Shown here: in pieces, positions 11,199 through 59,308 of the stretch
Numbering within the stretch: the first letter of the stretch is position 1
How the letters are laid out: every line of letters begins with the position of its first letter
Assembly: GCA_036924835.1 (NCBI GenBank)
Contig: JBAGRR010000001.1
Span: 4,789,001 to 4,853,000 of the forward strand
Origin: Nitrobacteraceae bacterium AZCC 1564
GTDB taxonomy: Bacteria; Pseudomonadota; Alphaproteobacteria; Rhizobiales; Xanthobacteraceae
Length of the DNA stretch: 64,000 bases
Direction of reading: 5' to 3'
Translations under genes and position numbers: made by a program
The notes under the pieces: generated by a model
Told to the model about the DNA's origin: nothing
What the model saw: the letters and a program-made list of their open reading frames with translations, nothing else
Databases searched by the model: none

Positions 11199-12041
11199 TC
11201 ACACCTGTGGCCCCATCAGCCGTTGCGCCCGCTCGGCGCAGAGCACGTGATGATGAAGGTTCGCAATCCACTGCCGACCGGAGGTCGTCATGTTCAGGTA
11301 CTTGATACCGTCGTCGAGGTGGATCGAGACGCTGTTCCAGAAGAACGATGGATACTTTTCGATGATGTCGGCGGGTGAGGAATAGCCGAGCTGCTTGTTC
11401 ATCCCGATCTCTTCAAACTCGTAGTAAAGAGCGTTCGCCCTCCGCAGATATAAAGGATCGCCGAGCTGCCCGATGAAATCGGCGGCCTGCACCAGTTTCG
11501 GTTCGAGGCCGCAATTGCGAGAGGCATCTTTCGGTACCGGGAAGCGCGTCATCTCGATGGCGTCCGCGATGCGCCGGGCGTCGACGGTCGGATTCTTCTC
11601 CAGCCGCTCGAAGGCGAATAGTTTTGAGCGGTCCACATGATACGGCGCCAGCGATGCGTCTGATGCGCCGCGCGGCAGCGTGATCTTGCGGCCGGTGGTG
11701 TCCGCGACGAATTCGGTTTCGGTGTCGCCGCTGAGGACGCCGCGCACATAGCCGATGTCGTGCAGCAGACAGGCGACGATCAAATGGCTGTAGTCGGACG
11801 GCTCGATGCGCCGCGACACCATCATGCCCTGCAGAATGTCGCGGCCCACCATGGTCACCTGCAACGTATGTTCGTAGGTGTGATAGAGCGCGTCGCTGCC
11901 TGCAAGGCACTCGATGGTGGCGCGTGCAGCGGAGCCGAGACGCTCTGCTTCGTCAGCGTGGGCCGAGCCGAACACCCGGCGAAAATCCTTGGTGAGAAAA
12001 TTGCCCAGCCTGTGAGCAGCAATGGCGGTGATCGATTTCAT
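11199..12041 (-). CDS. HD domain metal-dependent phosphohydrolase
   Basis: The protein has 280 residues. HD residues are visible: His in YHTYEHTLQVTMVGRD, the His-Asp pair in ACLLHDIGYVRGV, and a later Asp in VQAADFIGQLGDP. HD enzymes hydrolyse phosphate esters, including cyclic nucleotides. No signalling domain is attached. The 5' flank is an array of palindromic modules (12095-12425) beginning 54 bp upstream of its start, so its promoter must be close or inside the array. Confidence 0.8.
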   Translation of the reverse strand: MKSITAIAAHRLGNFLTKDFRRVFGSAHADEAERLGSAARATIECLAGSDALYHTYEHTLQVTMVGRDILQGMMVSRRIEPSDYSHLIVACLLHDIGYVRGVLSGDTETEFVADTTGRKITLPRGASDASLAPYHVDRSKLFAFERLEKNPTVDARRIADAIEMTRFPVPKDASRNCGLEPKLVQAADFIGQLGDPLYLRRANALYYEFEEIGMNKQLGYSSPADIIEKYPSFFWNSVSIHLDDGIKYLNMTTSGRQWIANLHHHVLCAERAQRLMGPQV

Positions 12042-12094: not shown

Positions 12095-12170
12095 CTAGTG
12101 TCCTGAATCCGAAGTTCGCCTCATAATGCAGCGCATCCCGTAGCGAACTTCGGATTCGAAAGGACACTAG
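12095..12170. repeat. CTAG palindromic module, type 1
   Basis: Outer stem CTAGTGTCC/GGACACTAG, inner stem GAATCCGAAGTTCGC/GCGAACTTCGGATTC, loop of about 25 nt. Both stems are perfect. The last four bases are shared with the next module. Confidence 0.9.
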
Positions 12171-12245
12171 TGGAGTGGATTTGACATTCGCTACCCACCT
12201 TGCAGCGAGTTCGTCAAGCGAATGTCAAATCCAAAACTCCACTAG
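12167..12245. repeat. CTAG palindromic module, type 2
   Basis: Outer stem CTAGTGGAGT/ACTCCACTAG (AAA unpaired on the right side), inner stem GGATTTGACATTCGCT/AGCGAATGTCAAATCC, loop about 24 nt. Starts on the CTAG that ends the previous module. Confidence 0.9.
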
Positions 12246-12258
12246 AAACTTATATTTG

Positions 12259-12335
12259 CTAGTGGTCCTTTGATTCTAACATTCGCAGGAGGAGCCTGCC
12301 GAAACGGGATGCGAATGTTAGAATCGGACCACTAG
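12259..12335. repeat. CTAG palindromic module, type 3
   Basis: Outer stem CTAGTGGTCC/GGACCACTAG, inner stem GATTCTAACATTCGCA/TGCGAATGTTAGAATC, loop about 22 nt. Joined to the previous module by a 13-nt linker (AAACTTATATTTG). Confidence 0.9.
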
Positions 12336-12347
12336 TAACCTACAATT

Positions 12348-12425
12348 CTAGTGTGGTTCAGGTTCAGAAGTTCGCTTGAAGGAATCGCCGAGAAATTGAA
12401 GCGAACTTCTGAACCACCACACTAG
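12348..12425. repeat. CTAG palindromic module, type 4
   Basis: Outer stem CTAGTGTGGT/ACCACACTAG, inner stem GGTTCAGAAGTTCGCTT/AAGCGAACTTCTGAACC, loop about 21 nt. Preceded by a 12-nt linker (TAACCTACAATT). Confidence 0.9.
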
Positions 12426-12460
12426 AACGATACCTCTGTTTCAAGAGGTTTGAAAGTTAA

Positions 12461-12482
12461 TGTGGTGGTTCAGAAGTTCGCT
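12461..12482. repeat. Half module, type 4 left arm only
   Basis: The sequence TGTGGTGGTTCAGAAGTTCG matches the left arm of type 4, but no right arm follows before the next gene. It is a truncated copy at the end of the array. Confidence 0.75.
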
Positions 12483-12562
12483 CCATTTTCGCGCGCGCGT
12501 GATCGAACGCTGCGGCCCGGCGTAACGCTTTCGGTCAGCGCGTGGGGTAATCGCGGTGCCGG

Positions 12563-12838
12563 TTAGGCGCGCTCGCGTCTGAAGAAGCCGAAATAAAGAC
12601 AGATCAGAAACAGGATGAAGTGGATGACGGACCGTCCGCCGCTGATCTCGGGTGTCTCCATGAAGCTCGTGCCGAGAAGGGGCATGGAGACATCGGCGAG
12701 ATAGAGGTAGAACAAGGTGCCGGAGGATACAAAGAACGCGCCGGCGAGAAATTTGCGGACGTCGCGGTAGCGCACGCCGAAATAAATGGCGGCGACAGCC
12801 ATGGCGACCGCGGCGGCGGAATAGAGGGTGATCGCCAT
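12563..12838 (-). CDS. Small membrane protein, 91 residues
   Basis: Three hydrophobic segments are visible: LYSAAAVAMAVAAIYFGV, FLAGAFFVSSGTLFYLYLAD and VIHFILFLICLYFGFF, with a short basic end (RRERA). It is probably an inner-membrane protein; no family recognised. It follows the DUF-type gene at 12869-13381 by 30 bp on the same strand, so they likely form one unit. Confidence 0.65.
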   Translation of the reverse strand: MAITLYSAAAVAMAVAAIYFGVRYRDVRKFLAGAFFVSSGTLFYLYLADVSMPLLGTSFMETPEISGGRSVIHFILFLICLYFGFFRRERA

Positions 12839-16176: not shown

Positions 16177-16431
16177 ATGATCAAATTGATTGCCATTGCC
16201 GCCTTCGCCTTGGGTATCACCTTGGGCATCCCAACATTCGCACAAGCCATGCCGGTTGCGCCGGTGCAGGCACCGGAAGGCGTCATCACGGACGTCGCCT
16301 TCGGCTGCGGGCCGGGCATGACACGCGTTCGTGGTGTCTGCGTCCCCAGGGCCAGGATCCGCCAGACGCGTCGAGCCGTCCGCAGGTGTGTGTTATGGCG
16401 CGGAGGCATTTGCCGCCGGTGGGTTTACTAG
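16177..16431 (+). CDS. Small secreted basic protein, GCGPGM type
   Basis: The start at 16177 follows GGGAGGAAAGCTT. The 84-residue product has a signal peptide cleaved near FAQA-MP, then FGCGPGMTRVRGVCVPRARI, a short cysteine-rich region of a kind repeated across Bradyrhizobium-type genomes, and a basic C-terminus (CRRWVY). The stop codon TAG (16429-16431) belongs to the CTAG that opens the palindromic module downstream, so the module defines the end of the protein. Function unknown. Confidence 0.65.
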   Translation: MIKLIAIAAFALGITLGIPTFAQAMPVAPVQAPEGVITDVAFGCGPGMTRVRGVCVPRARIRQTRRAVRRCVLWRGGICRRWVY

Positions 16432-16506
16432 TGCAGCGTATCTGACGTTCGTATCAATATTAGCCGCTCGTCCATCATACGAACGTCAGATACAAAGCCG
16501 CACTAG
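16428..16506. repeat. CTAG palindromic module, type 5
   Basis: Outer CTAGTGC(A)GC/GC(C)GCACTAG, inner GTATCTGACGTTCGTA/TACGAACGTCAGATAC, loop about 24 nt. Its first CTAG supplies the stop codon of the gene ending at 16431. Confidence 0.88.
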
Positions 16507-16519
16507 ATTCATATTTTTG

Positions 16520-16595
16520 CTAGTGTCCCTCAGGCTCTGACATTCGTAAACGAGGTAGCCGCAAATTGGTACGAATGTCAGAACCGGGACACTAG
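16520..16595. repeat. CTAG palindromic module, type 6
   Basis: Outer CTAGTGTCCC/GGGACACTAG, inner stem around CTCTGACATTCGTA/TACGAATGTCAGAAC (minor mismatch at the base), loop about 21 nt. A 13-nt linker (ATTCATATTTTTG) joins it to the type 5 module. Confidence 0.88.
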
Positions 16596-16796
16596 AACGC
16601 CCTTGAACGGCCGGCGAGGGACGTGGTCGCATTCAGCCGCTGCTTTTGATCGTCGCCGGCAAATTTTGAGGCCGGCAAATTTTGAGCGGAATTAGCGTGG
16701 CGCGGGACAATCCGGCCGCCCGACGCGCCAGTATGAACGTGTGCGCTGCATGATCGCAGCAGCAGTAATCCCGGGCGGCCGGTGGAGGGATGTCTC

Positions 16797-23313: not shown

Positions 23314-23505
23314 CGGCTTTGCTTTCAGTGGAGCAAGGAAGCCCGACCGATAAGATAGGAATGATGATGTCATTGGGTACCGTGGGGGATCGTCGCGCTT
23401 GGTCACTTTCGACAGGTGCTGACCGGTCCTTGGGCGGGAATTTTTCGGCCGCCGATCGGGAAAAAGTCCCGCCTCGAATTGGCATTCTCATTTGGGGAGA
23501 TTCGG

Positions 23506-23583
23506 CTAGTGTCGTGGTTCAGAAGTTCGCTCGATTTTTTCCGCGAGTCCTTCAAGCGAACTTCTGAACCTAAACCACACGAG
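23506..23583. repeat. CTAG palindromic module, type 4, right end worn
   Basis: Left end CTAGTGTCGTGGTTCAG, inner stem GGTTCAGAAGTTCGCT/AGCGAACTTCTGAACC perfect, loop about 23 nt, right end ACCACACGAG where CTAG has become CGAG. Confidence 0.85.
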
Positions 23584-23605
23584 AGGGTCATAAACCTATC
23601 GAATC

Positions 23606-23656
23606 CGCTACGGAGCGTGCTGCACCATGAGGCGAACCTTGGATTCGGGACACTAG
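23606..23656. repeat. Half module, type 1 right arm
   Basis: Reverse complement of the type 1 left half: GGCGAACCTTGGATTCGGGA then CACTAG. The other arm is missing. Confidence 0.7.
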
Positions 23657-23706
23657 TGTGGCTTGCCGCAGTTCCCTTGCGCATCAGGGGTACAGCTATC
23701 ACTTTC

Positions 23707-25722: not shown

Positions 25723-25831
25723 TCCGATGAACCGAAACAATTTGTCGGATGAAATCGCGATGTATGAAATCGAGGTGGATAAAGACACGCTGCGCCCTTG
25801 GTGATGAGGACGCGATTCTTGGGCATGTCGC

Positions 25832-25859
25832 CTCGCGGGGAGATCGCAGATCCCCGTGA
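25832..25859. other. Hairpin upstream of the propeller gene
   Basis: CTCGCGGGGA and TCCCCGTGAG pair (one G-T) around GATCGCAGA. It lies about 110 bp upstream of the propeller gene start and may belong to its leader. Confidence 0.45.
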
Positions 25860-25990
25860 GTTGGATAAGAAACCCGGAAGACCGGGCTGTCAACCGGCAG
25901 GCGCATCGCTCTGTCGGGCGAACCAGTTCGGCCTGCGCTGCGCTCGATGTTGCTCGCGCGATTTGCGCCCTGCGGCGTCCACTCGAACGT

Positions 25991-30380: not shown

Positions 30381-30461
30381 TGTCCTTCTCCGCAAAGAGA
30401 AACAGCCGTCCAGCGTGAACACTGCACCTAGTTAGTCATCAATCACGCACCCGAAAAGGCG

Positions 30462-30486
30462 CTAGTGTGGTGGTTCAGAAGTTCGC
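30462..30486. repeat. Left arm of a split type 4 module
   Basis: CTAGTGTGGTGGTTCAGAAG then TTCGC. Its perfect partner lies at 31911-31935, 1.4 kb away, across the catalase gene. Confidence 0.8.
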
Positions 30487-30645
30487 CTGATTTTTCCTAA
30501 GGTTCGCAATCTCGCGCAAAGGCGATCAGGTACACGACAAGGTGAAGGCGACGGGGAGCGAATTTTGTTTAGATTAGGGGGCGCGGGCGCGACCTTTCGA
30601 CAGCCTGAAATAACTTTGCACGCGCTCCGTGATGGGAGGATGATC

Positions 30646-31641: not shown

Positions 31642-31910
31642 ATCGTCCATCTGACGATTGCCAGTTTCCGCGGCCATCGAGCGGATGGGCCAGCGCGGGC
31701 CTCGTTAAGCAAGGCCGTCACAGCGATCCTTCAAAAATCGGGCAGCGCCACTTGGCGGTCTAGTCGAGGAGACCGAGTTCCGCTGCGACAGGCTTGCTTG
31801 GCAAGCCATCCGCACATCGAACGATCGCGCGGCATCGCCGCTCCTGCTGACTCAATGATTAGCGACTTATTAATCTCCTGTTGCTTAGTCGGACCTGTGG
31901 GAAAGATCGA
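31642..31910. other. Intergenic region after the catalase gene
   Basis: No supported gene. It ends at the right arm of the split module. Together with the catalase gene it forms the interior of that palindrome. Confidence 0.35.
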
Positions 31911-31935
31911 GCGAACTTCTGAACCGCCACACTGG
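31911..31935. repeat. Right arm of a split type 4 module
   Basis: GCGAACTTCTGAACCGCCAC then ACTGG. It pairs over 24-25 bases with 30462-30486 (CTAG worn to CTGG on this side). Confidence 0.8.
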
Positions 31936-31937
31936 GA

Positions 31938-32588
31938 ATGATGCGGCCGTCTGAACCGCTGCCGGCCTGCGACTTTGAGAGCTTGATGTTAAATAACGCC
32001 GCTTTTTCCCTGGTCCTCTTTAGCTGGCTGAGGCATCTCGGGGAGATCCTGCTTCTGATAGGGTTGAGCGGCGAAGTCGCTCTTCTGGTTCTCAAGATGT
32101 CGAAAGGCGCTTGGGAGCGAGGACTGGCGATCACATTTGCCATTCTCGTCCTGGTCGGCGTCGCTCTGGAATTTTGGGCCGATAGCCCGAGGACGATCGG
32201 CCCCGTATCCCAACAGCGGATAGCCGATACCCTCAAGGAATTTCGTGGCACGCCGTTCGATTTCTCGGTCAACCTTGATCCCGAAGCTGTCGTCTTGATG
32301 GAAAATATCGGTAAAGCGCTTGATGCTGCTGGCTGGAAGAGACAGGCGGTCGCAGGCGGCTCCGGATATATCCAGCCAGGAAAGCCTGCGGCCGGCATCG
32401 CTGTGTTCGCGGGGCTCGAAGTGCAGATTGCCGAGTCGCGCCAGTCGGATTGGGGAGCGGCGGGTCAACCAGCGGCCGTGCTTTTGCACGCCTTGCGGAA
32501 CGAAGGATTGACCGCCTTCGCGAAACAGGTCCCGGATAACCAGGAAAGCGCCGACGCGATCCATATCAAGATCGGCGCCAAGCCATAA
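31938..32588 (+). CDS. Membrane protein of unknown function
   Basis: The 216-residue frame starts 2 bp after the module arm; ATG 31986 (MLNNAAFSLVLFSWLRHLGE) is an alternative with GAGAG upstream. Two membrane segments follow (LGEILLLIGLSGEVALLVL, GLAITFAILVLVGVALEFW). The cytoplasmic or periplasmic C-terminal domain contains VLMENIGKALDAAGWKRQAV and PAAVLLHALRNEGLTAFAKQ, a pattern seen in small rhizobial membrane proteins without known function. Confidence 0.65.
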   Translation: MMRPSEPLPACDFESLMLNNAAFSLVLFSWLRHLGEILLLIGLSGEVALLVLKMSKGAWERGLAITFAILVLVGVALEFWADSPRTIGPVSQQRIADTLKEFRGTPFDFSVNLDPEAVVLMENIGKALDAAGWKRQAVAGGSGYIQPGKPAAGIAVFAGLEVQIAESRQSDWGAAGQPAAVLLHALRNEGLTAFAKQVPDNQESADAIHIKIGAKP

Positions 32589-46117: not shown

Positions 46118-46444
46118 CACGCACGCCCCCAGGTCACAAGCATCCTTTGCGGGAAACAGGGTTTCCCACGTGTGAATGGCTGACACGTTGTAAGGTAAAG
46201 TTACCCACACAGATTGGGCCTGCCGTGTGGAAAAAGCGAGTCCTTTTTTCAAAAAACTCTTGATCTTGCCATTTTACCGCTGCGATCGCGCGGCGCCTGC
46301 CTTTATCCAGTATACCAGCGCGTTACGTGAGCAGCATTGACCTAATAAAATTTGAGTCGATCGCAGCGTTGCCGCGCGCTTTTGATCACGCGTGTTTACG
46401 ATGCGCGTTTGAAGCGCTTCGGACGATCAAAAATAATCGTCCGG

Positions 46445-46509
46445 CTAGTGTCCCGAATCTAAAGTTCGCCTCATCGTGCAGCATGCTCAGTAGCGAACCG
46501 CCACACGAG
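46445..46509. repeat. CTAG module, type 1, worn
   Basis: CTAGTGTCCCGAATCTAAAG then TTCGCCTCATCGTGCAGCAT; the right arm is reduced to TAGCGAACCGCCACACGAG, which looks like a type 1/type 4 hybrid. Confidence 0.65.
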
Positions 46510-47562: not shown

Positions 47563-47571
47563 GCGGATCAG

Positions 47572-47629
47572 CTATTGTCCCGAATCCAAAGGTCGCCTCA
47601 TCGTCCAGCGCGTTCCGTAGCGAACTTTG
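47572..47629. repeat. CTAG module, type 1, worn; enters the ClC gene
   Basis: CTATTGTCCCGAATCCAAAG then GTCGCCTCATCGTCCAGCGC and TAGCGAACTTTG. Its right part (47598-47629) codes for the last 10 residues of the ClC protein. Confidence 0.65.
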
Positions 47630-53867: not shown

Positions 53868-53900
53868 CTCCTACGCGCGCTCTCACGCGTGTTGTAGGAG
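53868..53900 (-). promoter_or_regulatory. Switch hairpin covering the crcB ribosome binding site
   Basis: The aptamer 3' strand CUCCUAC (53894-53900) is complementary to GUAGGAG (53868-53874), which contains the ribosome binding site; inner ACGCG/CGCGT extends the stem. The same CUCC pairs with GGGG inside the aptamer when fluoride is bound. Confidence 0.75.
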
Positions 53901-53945
53901 TCATCAGCCACCATGGCGGTTCTCGGGGGGACCCCATCCCCATCG
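53890..53945 (-). ncRNA. Fluoride riboswitch (crcB motif)
   Basis: On the minus strand the leader reads GGGGATGGGGTCCCCCCGAG, AACCGCCATGGTGGC and TGATGACTCCTAC. It contains the conserved GAUG, the ACCGCC...GGC helix, the UGAUG joiner and the terminal CUCCUAC, as in known fluoride aptamers. It lies 32 nt before the crcB start codon. Confidence 0.93.
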
Positions 53946-54195
53946 CGATATAATGTATCTCATGTCTATACCCGCCGCCGGGTTGCGGTTCAAGGCCGGC
54001 ATGCCCTGCCCAGATGGCTGAACCGCCCCATCAGGTTCCATCCTGAATGCATGCTTGTTGAGAGGCATTCTCGCTCCGGTTCCCGACGCACTGGAAAGTT
54101 CCATCGTGTTCCGATGCCGCACCCACCGCGCTACCTCTCGACAGAAGGGAACTTGCGCGACATCCTGAGCGAATTGCGGATCAGGATTATTTGAA

Positions 54196-55917: not shown

Positions 55918-56374
55918 CTGTTAGAGACCAAACATGATCAGCGCAGCGCCGGGCAGGTGCCCGGTCGGCGGAAATGTCGACAGATTTTCTTGCGATACGC
56001 TGAGGGTTTCCGGGGGATAGGCGCCCGGCCGAGCCACCCGAAAAATCGGGTCCGACGAAGGGCCCTTCATAGCATGCTGCGTCGCGGCATCAAGACTTTA
56101 GCAGCGGCTCATGTGAGCAATCCCGATTTTTGATCGCTGTGCCACGCCGCTTCATTTGCGCACACAACGTCTTCGTTCATTTGTCATCATCGCTTCACAA
56201 GGAGCGGCCCGCGTGTTTGGCGCGCTTTGTAAGCATTCCATTCATTCGATGTTTGCGAACGCATCAACACGCGTGAGCGTGAGCCTGCCCCGCCGTTGCG
56301 CGGGTTGCGCATCGGGAGAGGCGCGGTAACATCATTATCTCTCGTGGACTGCTGCAGCCTCCCTGGAGGGTCAT
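55918..56374. other. Intergenic region, 457 bp
   Basis: No intact gene. A 10-bp inverted repeat AAAAATCGGG (56041-56050)/CCCGATTTTT (56122-56131) encloses 71 bp. A frame on the minus strand ending TTTGGTCTCTAA three bases before the pseudogene start may be the end of another lost gene. The right part should hold the amidohydrolase promoter. Confidence 0.4.
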
Positions 56375-57989: not shown

Positions 57990-58109
57990 ATGAGTTGTTC
58001 AGTTCGAATGGAGGCCCGCAACCGGGGCTTCGTTCGTAAATCGTTGATGGTGCTCCTTTGGATTATCTGCGCGTTCGCGCTGTTTTGGATTTTGCAGGCC
58101 GCTGACTAG
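57990..58109 (+). CDS. Small membrane peptide ended by a palindromic module
   Basis: The 39-residue product from ATG 57990 (GGGGAATTGGGAAA upstream) reads MSCSVRMEARNRGFVRKSLM, then one membrane helix VLLWIICAFALFWILQAAD. The stop TAG (58107-58109) is part of the CTAG that opens the module at 58106. Function unknown. Confidence 0.4.
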   Translation: MSCSVRMEARNRGFVRKSLMVLLWIICAFALFWILQAAD

Positions 58110-58147
58110 TGTGGTGGTTCAGAAGTTCTGAACCTGAATCACAGTAG
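58106..58147. repeat. CTAG module, type 4, shortened
   Basis: CTAGTGTGGTGGTTCAGAAG then TTCTGAACCTGAATCACAGTAG. The TTCGC part and the loop are lost, leaving a short hairpin. Its CTAG gives the stop codon of the gene ending at 58109. Confidence 0.8.
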
Positions 58148-58160
58148 AATCATAGGCTTG

Positions 58161-58265
58161 CTAAAGCATGATCCGGAAAAGTGTGCAGCGGTTTTCCGAA
58201 AAGATCATGCTCAAACAATAACCTAAAGCGCGATGATGATTCATCCTGATCTCATCGCGCTTTAG
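58161..58265. repeat. Two-hairpin interspersed repeat R2, copy 2
   Basis: Inverted relative to 49238-49342. Hairpin AGCATGATCCGGAAAA / TTTTCCGAAAAGATCATGCT and hairpin CTAAAGCGCGATGATGATTC / GATCTCATCGCGCTTTAG. A 13-nt linker (AATCATAGGCTTG) separates it from the shortened module, as between CTAG modules. Confidence 0.85.
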
Positions 58266-58289
58266 TGTCCCTTTGATTCCGAAGTTCGC
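58263..58289. repeat. Half module, type 1 left arm
   Basis: TAGTGTCCCTTTGATTCCGA then AGTTCGC follows R2 directly, with no right arm. Confidence 0.7.
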
Positions 58290-58403
58290 GTCCGAGCAAG
58301 TCGCAAGCCTGTGCGAATTCTACCGCCAGGCCGCCGCGCGACATCGTTTGCCGTGCGTGAGCCGCGCCAAGGTTCATTTCTGTTTTTGATGAAGGCATTG
58401 CCG

Positions 58404-58832
58404 ATGACCGTTCAGCCTCTCGTGCCGTGGGTGAGATGGACACGGACGGGCGTTATCGGGATCGGCCTCGGCTGGGTGCCTTGCCTCTTCCTCTGGCATC
58501 GGTTCATTGAGCATAGCGAAGTCATACGGGCGGGACTCATCGTTGCGCTTTTTGCCTGGTCGATGATTTTCCCGTGGCTTTTGCTTCTCAGCCTGCTGTT
58601 GCCCACGCATAAGTTGCGCATCGTCGGCATGCCAGTGGTTTTTCTAGTGTGGTATTTGACTGCGACGTCGCCGCAGCCTTTCGGCAACCTGACGCCGGAG
58701 TCTGCGCCGTGGCTTGCGTTGTGGTTGACCACCTGCGTTGCCGTCACGCTTCTCGTTCCACAATTCACGACGATCGCTGCATTTGTCATCTTTGTCGCGA
58801 AGGACCTGAGAAAGAGATGGATGCGACGGTGA
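58404..58832 (+). CDS. Membrane protein of unknown function, 142 residues
   Basis: ATG 58404 has AAGG upstream; the frame is open to 58311. Four membrane segments are seen: GVIGIGLGWVPCLFLWHRF, AGLIVALFAWSMIFPWLLLL, IVGMPVVFLVWYLTATS and LALWLTTCVAVTLLVPQFTT. The end is basic (LRKRWMRR). The stop TGA (58830-58832) lies one base before a palindromic module. No family recognised. Confidence 0.55.
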   Translation: MTVQPLVPWVRWTRTGVIGIGLGWVPCLFLWHRFIEHSEVIRAGLIVALFAWSMIFPWLLLLSLLLPTHKLRIVGMPVVFLVWYLTATSPQPFGNLTPESAPWLALWLTTCVAVTLLVPQFTTIAAFVIFVAKDLRKRWMRR

Positions 58833-58833
58833 G

Positions 58834-58913
58834 TAGTGGAGCGGATTTGATGTTCGCTACGCTGCTTGCCGCGAATTCGTGATGCGAACGTCAAATCCCA
58901 GAGCTCCACTAGT
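58834..58913. repeat. CTAG module, type 2
   Basis: Left end TAGTGGAGCGG (CTAG worn to GTAG), inner GGATTTGATGTTCGC/GCGAACGTCAAATCC (one T-G pair), right end AGCTCCACTAG shared with the next module. Compared with the type 2 copy at 12167, an A-T pair has become G-C. Confidence 0.85.
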
Positions 58914-58987
58914 GTGGTGGTTCAGAAGTTCGCTTCATTCTCTCGGCGAGTCCTGTAAGCGAACTTCTGAACCAAAACCACACTAGA
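58910..58987. repeat. CTAG module, type 4
   Basis: CTAGTGTGGTGGTTCAGAAG, inner stem GGTTCAGAAGTTCGCTT/AAGCGAACTTCTGAACC, end ACCACACTAG. It shares its first CTAG with the type 2 module. Confidence 0.9.
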
Positions 58988-58999
58988 TCAATAACTTGC

Positions 59000-59073
59000 T
59001 AGTGTCCTTCGATTCCGAAGTTCGCAAACGAAGGTGCAGCGGAATAATGCGAACTTCGGAATCGGGACACTAG
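59000..59073. repeat. CTAG module, type 1
   Basis: Outer CTAGTGTCC/GGACACTAG, inner GATTCCGAAGTTCGCA/TGCGAACTTCGGAATC, perfect; second base pair from the end differs from the 12095 copy on both arms. Linker ATCAATAACTTG precedes it. Confidence 0.9.
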
Positions 59074-59085
59074 AATCTATATTTG

Positions 59086-59160
59086 CTAGTGGTCCTTCAA
59101 TTCTAACGTTCGCAAGAGTGCCCGCCGAGACGGATGCGAACGTGAGAATTGGACCACTAG
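59086..59160. repeat. CTAG module, type 3
   Basis: Outer CTAGTGGTCC/GGACCACTAG, inner AATTCTAACGTTCGCA/TGCGAACGTGAGAATT (one mismatch). Linker AATCTATATTTG precedes it. Two base pairs differ from the 12259 copy on both arms. Confidence 0.9.
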
Positions 59161-59308
59161 GCCGTGCAAATTAGTCACACCCGCGAAATTTGTGGGGAAA
59201 TTCATGAGTTTGCCCATCATCTGCCGCATCATGGCGGCATCAATGTCCGCACGACTTCATTAGGGCGTTGGGGAGAGCGTTGTGCTCCGCTCATGAAGGA
59301 GAGCCGCT

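Follow-up and report, generated by a model that had tools for sequence, protein, structure and literature searches.

IS630 and ISY100 are reported to move by cut-and-paste into TA dinucleotides with target duplication (PMC2170065), and the reference list of that source cites a paper whose title states a preference of IS630 for the TA in CTAG. These elements are full length and encode their own transposase; the dimers analyzed here lack such a frame and have hairpin ends. RUP of pneumococcus, a proposed MITE of IS630-Spn1, resembles these dimers in its high copy number, intergenic location, IS630-like ends and TA target. However, RUP is described as a simple element of 107 bp (PMC2229807, PMC3049150), whereas the present dimers carry a hairpin at both of their ends, target CTAG, nest within one another, and insert at stop codons. 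MITEPsy1 is likewise a short bacterial MITE that inserts into CTAG or YTAA, but it is listed as 'IS5?', has other ends, measures 100 nt, and occurs in 6 copies in strain 1448A (PMC3189936). Br-REP1 and Br-REP2, the REP/BIME elements of Bradyrhizobium, are also dispersed intergenic palindromes and sometimes inverted dimers, but they are reported to be shorter, with other sequences (Br-REP1, CCGGAATCTCGAGATTCCGG) and a GTAG or CGTC tag (PMC3733652, PMC5082802). PMC2680597 was also consulted. In the titles and abstract starts of the open-access literature searched, we found no description of the present repeat or of IS630-MITE insertion into stop codons.

In the present study, we analyzed an array of palindromes at positions 12095-12425 of the window, which is the whole 64,000-nt stretch of DNA examined. 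An earlier note on this DNA had described four CTAG-bounded hairpins, and these were borne out at 12095-12170, 12167-12245, 12259-12335, and 12348-12425. Their outer stems measure about 9 bp, their inner stems are at least 15 bp long and end in TTCGC, and their loops span 23-26 nt. Folding of the array as single-stranded DNA yielded -106.2 kcal/mol, compared with -36.65 ± 3.74 for 100 shuffles (z -18.6). The modules had also been described as lying head to tail, which was incorrect. Each module is asymmetric, the inner stem lying 10 nt from CTAG on the short-arm side and, in most cases, 13 nt from it on the long-arm side, and the polarity of the array is > > < <, that is, one inverted hairpin dimer nested in another, T1>[T2>..T3<]..T4<. 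Modules 1 and 2 have one CTAG in common, and the other gaps are 13 and 12 nt. The array is a (T2,T3) dimer lying in the CTAG at the T1 inner end of an older (T1,T4) dimer. The last CTAG of T1 (12167-12170) was the target of the inner dimer, whose profile match extended over 12162-12339 (model positions 6-183 of 189). The description of the array as a repeat by architecture and not by sequence was right, as four arm types follow one common plan. The arm types form two fixed pairs, (T4,T1) and (T2,T3), and the best explanation is that each pair represents the two ends of an IS630-type transposon. Types T1-T4 or their subtypes were found again elsewhere in the window, as claimed, and the half copy behind the array is real. 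The features are as follows:

11199..12041, minus strand: left neighbor gene, with a weak HD-domain match of 23.4 bits (cut-off 22); the array is located upstream of the gene start
12095..12170, plus strand: T1 hairpin, which makes up one half of the outer (T1,T4) dimer; arms at 12095-12119 (short) and 12143-12170 (long), loop at 12120-12142
12167..12335, plus strand: complete inserted (T2,T3) dimer (T2 12167-12245, spacer 12246-12258, T3 12259-12335)
12336..12425, plus strand: remainder of the outer dimer (spacer 12336-12347, T4 hairpin 12348-12425)
12455..12497, plus strand: truncated T4 copy, the short arm and part of the loop (profile E 1.7e-6)
12563..12838, minus strand: right neighbor reading frame, without a Pfam match; the array follows its 3' end
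16423..16600, plus strand: (T2,T3) dimer (profile E 3.1e-23)
23501..23660, plus strand: (T4,T1) dimer (profile E 3.5e-41)
30455..30498, plus strand: (T4,T1) dimer fragment from the profile search
31860..31939, minus strand: (T4,T1) dimer fragment from the profile search
46442..46498, minus strand: (T4,T1) dimer fragment from the profile search
47568..47629, minus strand: (T4,T1) dimer fragment from the profile search
58101..58164, plus strand: (T4,T1) dimer fragment from the profile search
58263..58318, plus strand: (T4,T1) dimer fragment from the profile search
58831..59164, plus strand: mirror nest, a (T4,T1b) dimer within a (T2,T3) dimer, at the CTAG of the T2 inner end

The window also contains a fluoride riboswitch (53888-53950), a sul1 RNA (56004-56056), and a chrB-a RNA (25786-25860), all on the minus strand and above the Rfam gathering score. 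The density of CTAG had been considered striking for a motif that is generally rare in bacterial DNA. In the window, CTAG was only mildly depleted, with 59 occurrences against 78 expected from shuffles. Of the CTAG occurrences, 22 of 59 in the window and 457 of 1,093 in a 1.264-Mb sample of the genome lie within the elements.

The genome sample consisted of 60 stretches of 20 kb together with the window and covered 21% of the 5,994,409-bp genome. It contained 235 candidate hairpins, with loops of 18-28 nt in 215. The hairpins were mostly arranged as inverted pairs with the long arms inward and 12-13 nt apart; solitary and degraded modules were also present. T4 was paired with T1 or its subtypes T1b and T1c, and T2 was paired with T3. 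Dimers with spacers of 8-18 nt were extracted (44 of (T4,T1) and 15 of (T2,T3)), and the profiles built from them gave 213 non-overlapping matches in the 1.264-Mb sample, including 126 near full-length dimers of about 165 bp (96 T4/T1 and 30 T2/T3). The 159 element sites in the sample occupied 28,418 bp (2.25%), and extrapolation from the 21% sampled gave about 754 sites per genome. These results demonstrated that the sequence is repeated as an inverted dimer, which is about 165 bp long and has hairpins at both ends. The dimers are short, occur in high copy number, and carry no transposase gene or transposase-type reading frame, as is characteristic of MITEs. The interpretation in the earlier note was to be refuted if the modules proved to be only fixed and unique in sequence, or to be a named repeat with a settled function; instead, hundreds of dispersed copies were found, and the literature examined has no name for them. 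Chimeric single hairpins, which consist of a T1 short arm and a T4 short arm, were observed at L076 1449-1529 (= L145) and L097 1451-1542 and look like products of deletion between the repeated inner arms. The idea that orientation follows the replichore, first suspected only from the row order among the matches listed, was dropped, as both dimer orientations occur along the whole genome.

The junctions between elements were informative about the target site. Among 44 element-element junctions with an outer end on one side, the partner lay at a CTAG (within 7 positions) in 43, the sole exception being L062. In 31 of the 44, the partner was an internal CTAG of another dimer; by our arithmetic, 31 of the 32 non-end junction partners fall within the internal-CTAG windows, which account for about 30% of the model positions other than ends. 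These results demonstrated that the dimers nest at CTAG. The only clean empty site was L152, which reads GGTCTGAT-CTAA-GCTCTG, whereas the filled site L108 reads GGTCTGAT-CTAG...CTAG-GCTCTG; the flanks were 94.6% and 94.0% identical with no other loss, and the other empty-site alignments were diverged or partly misaligned. The CTAA of L152 can be read as closing a frame (ATC TAA), and the reading after insertion is ATC TAG. The target duplication is presumed to be 2 bp (TA), although the sequence fits a 4-bp CTAG duplication equally. A further pair of sites with the same flanks in two genomes (L132 1048-1248 and L213 3118-3316) carries a (T2,T3) dimer in opposite orientations; either the dimer was inverted where it lay, or the same CTAG received two insertions independently.

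Taken together, the modules are very probably the ends of non-autonomous MITEs of the IS630 / Tc1-mariner family, moved in trans by an IS630 transposase. According to the proposed mechanism, the outer short arms would serve as the terminal inverted repeats to which the transposase, provided in trans, binds. The unit would then enter a CTAG target at its TA, so that it is bordered by CTAG on either side. Since each dimer carries four CTAG sites, dimers would in turn insert into dimers. The element starts with TAG, so a gene whose stop codon is C-TAA or C-TAG would not be harmed by an insertion there. From their pairing, T4 and T1 presumably derive from opposite ends, left and right, of a single parent, and the hairpin form may have some role in transposition.

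The arms match the ends of IS630 elements. The two transposases used as queries were assigned to IS630 by NCBIfam (E 2.5e-82 and 1.1e-72) and carry DDE_3 and helix-turn-helix domains. A DDE_3 match was present in 8 of 29 genomes of the genus, and some of these elements are CTAG-bounded (L221, L223, L224); an initial scan for terminal repeats at the DDE_3 loci of the genus gave CTAG-bounded ends, none matching the modules. One same-genus IS630 element (L224 633-2104, L229) is 1.47 kb long and has a 385-aa transposase and the ends CTAGTGGTTCATCACAGTGAT. A search with the L224 transposase gave matches in 62 of 296 family genomes and led to 1.2-kb elements with ends resembling the module arms (L282, L287, L288, L290), and a search with the L287 transposase gave matches in 89 of the 296. 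The full-length elements from other genera of the family are 1.2 kb long with a 372-aa transposase. Both ends matched the T1 arm at 20-22 of 25 positions in 10 of the 30 IS630 loci fetched with the L287 search, some of the 10 being the same elements as the earlier set. The ends of L317, L318, and L321 (about 50% protein identity) matched T2/T3 at 17-19 of 25, and more distant IS630 ends (L221, L223, L224, L225 and others) matched T1 at 9-16. Terminal repeats were called in 26 of the 30 loci, and some calls were clearly spurious (e.g., L323, L326). None of the full-length IS630 elements found had ends identical to T4/T1 or T2/T3, the matches being 17-22 of 25. The full-length 1.2-kb elements show no hairpin ends, so the hairpin-end form belongs to the miniature elements. 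In the genome of origin, neither transposase query matched (6 of 10 and 6 of 9 first-look candidates scored), and the only DDE_3 (PF13358) match was a fragment of 100 open codons (L009, G000:C1:4096292-4096456). Because no intact cognate transposase was found there, the MITE family is probably immobile in this genome now.

The distribution of the repeat was assessed using the T4 arm with at most 3 mismatches, which was found at 326 places in the genome of origin, at 0-14 places in 28 same-genus genomes (none in 5), at 8 and 26 places in two of 8 other genera of the family, and at none in 24 genomes from other families of the order. At the BLAST level, the whole dimer was matched in 125 of 296 family genomes and 31 of 47 genera; two candidates per genome were scored in this search, so these values represent presence and not copy number. 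The genome of origin had the most first-look dimer candidates, 544, which are unscored and are not copies. Three genomes from other genera of the family (G104, G095, and G193) had 413, 356, and 204, which hints at separate expansions. The same dimers occur in records labeled Afipia and Nitrobacter, and L076, from a same-genus genome, is identical over both 350-bp flanks to L145 of Afipia sp. 1NLS2. A diverged dimer in a metagenome bin labeled Acetobacteraceae (L159 5528-5696) is due to either transfer or a binning error. The T4 arm had no exact match in viral contigs. In addition, we found a CTAG-ended MITE in Pseudomonas sp. EpS/L25 (L161, genome G061; 95 arm matches) whose end, CTAGTGTGGTGTTTCAGAAGTTCGC, is one base from the T4 short arm; unlike the dimers, it is a simple inverted-repeat element of about 170-200 bp with a different interior. 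In L240 and L263, its TAG looks like the stop codon of a gene, and the search for plasmid relatives gave two matches that covered only 12-13% of the query.

The relationship between the elements and gene ends was then examined in the genome sample. Among gene stops within 12 bp of an element edge, 35 of 76 were C-TAG compared with 36 of 1,022 elsewhere, and an exact-position test gave 34 of 276 element boundaries; genes were called by our own script rather than a standard caller, to the first in-frame stop, and a gene shortened by an insertion would also end at the element TAG. These results showed an excess of C-TAG stops at element edges. An orthologue of more than 80% identity was present for 2 of the 35 C-TAG genes in the relatives compared, and both orthologues end at the same codon. 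The 159 sites comprised 75 between co-directional genes, 40 between divergent genes, 39 between convergent genes, and 5 at stretch ends, with none wholly inside a called gene; by our arithmetic, this corresponds to about 0.73, 0.52, and 1.0 sites per kb of element-free intergenic DNA in the co-directional, divergent, and convergent contexts, respectively. The median distance from an element edge to the nearest gene 3' end was 18 bp (at most 20 bp in 79 of 153), and the corresponding values for gene starts were 121 bp and 14 of 155. That many copies lie exactly at gene ends would follow from the harmlessness of stop-codon insertion by an element with its own TAG.

One observation counts against an IS630 MITE: a dead MITE should decay evenly, yet the stems are still paired at fixed sites. 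In the commonest-length modules (119 of 165), divergence from the type consensus was 1.4-4.3% in inner arms and 10-24% in loops. In a separate count, 115 of 198 inner stems were perfect. At five orthologous sites, 2.1% of stem positions had changed compared with 17.6% (59/335) of unpaired positions. The 241 stem pairs at these sites contained 4 one-sided changes and 3 pair-keeping double changes, against 0.10 double changes expected if the arms changed independently (P ~2e-4). The flanks of the five pairs were 65-99% identical, and L124/L197, with flanks of 97-99%, had no stem change. Excluded from the count were L132/L213 (dimer inverted), L015/L113 (nested), and L102/L183 (poor alignment), the last of which had 4 one-sided changes, 2 pair-keeping double changes, and 1 other change. 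Stem pairing at fixed sites is beyond what transposition alone explains, and some force appears to keep the stems paired after insertion, as judged from small numbers.

One candidate for this force is arm-to-arm correction, in which template switching or gene conversion within the palindrome keeps the stems paired with no function involved. We regard it as a tentative explanation that agrees with the 3 double changes where 0.10 were expected and with the lack of a strand-specific wobble signal, and template switching has been reported to create and maintain hairpins (PMC8794818). However, inversion of the spacer is another reported outcome of template switching (PMC8604942), and under strict polarity 143 of 160 loops were forward, 16 were ambiguous, and the 1 called inverted was a divergent loop subtype. 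Loop inversion as a mark of template switching, seen in 12 of 198 loops in a loose test, was dropped, as 1 of 160 remained with strict polarity. Intramolecular template switching may still act on the arms. It is somewhat more doubtful that hairpins of IS630-MITE origin are now under host selection, for instance as bidirectional 3'-end signals (terminators or mRNA stabilizers). The closeness to gene 3' ends relative to gene starts, the low divergence of inner arms relative to loops, and the compensated changes at orthologous sites would agree with such selection. Nevertheless, G-U mismatches on the transcribed strand between co-directional genes were not in excess over A-C (21 vs 23), the 40 sites between divergent genes have no transcript end there, and a stop-codon target combined with tolerance would also place elements close to gene ends. 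It is unlikely, though worth stating, that an IS630 MITE with hairpins at both ends became part of host 3' gene ends in this lineage, supplying its own TAG and a strong hairpin behind the gene, with pairing kept at fixed sites by compensated changes through either host selection or arm-to-arm correction.

Other origins were considered for the modules themselves. REP sequences are short palindromes that a RAYT, a Y1 tyrosine transposase, disperses from single-stranded DNA, and two inverted REPs constitute a BIME. The present dimers share with them inverted pairs of unlike hairpins, high copy number, and intergenic location, and GTAG- and CGTC-tagged REPs are reported from Bradyrhizobium and Rhodopseudomonas (PMC3733652). 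However, the Y1 transposase domain (PF01797) was absent from the genome of origin in a search that matched 5 of 14 control genomes, and a REP/RAYT origin was rejected on this basis. The type consensus also has CTAG at both feet and not a one-sided GTAG, the arms resemble IS630 ends, and insertions nest at CTAG, all of which make a REP/BIME origin highly improbable. Equally remote is an IS5-type MITE that duplicates 4 bp (CTAG/YTAA). The model for it is MITEPsy1 of Pseudomonas syringae, which is reported to enter CTAG or YTAA with a 4-nt duplication; although the flanks here are compatible with 2 or 4 bp, the matching ends are carried by IS630 elements, and the printed MITEPsy1 ends (GGAAGGTCTGAAAAAGCC), the only IS5-side comparison made, are unlike the module arms (PMC3189936). 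The structured RNA hinted at in the earlier note was rejected, as no Rfam family reached threshold at the array and G-U mismatches did not exceed A-C mismatches on the short-arm-first strand (41 vs 46) or on the transcribed strand, an outcome that argues against selection at the RNA level as the principal force.

Collectively, the IS630-MITE reading gives a concrete origin and a target rule for the interspersed palindromes that number in the hundreds in the Afipia/Nitrobacter lineage. It illustrates how nested arrays arise from a site-specific MITE that brings its target along, and it offers a simple reason for the clustering at gene ends, namely that the TAG of the element replaces the stop codon. 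The compensated stem changes at orthologous sites make it testable whether bacterial palindromic repeats are kept paired by selection or by template switching.
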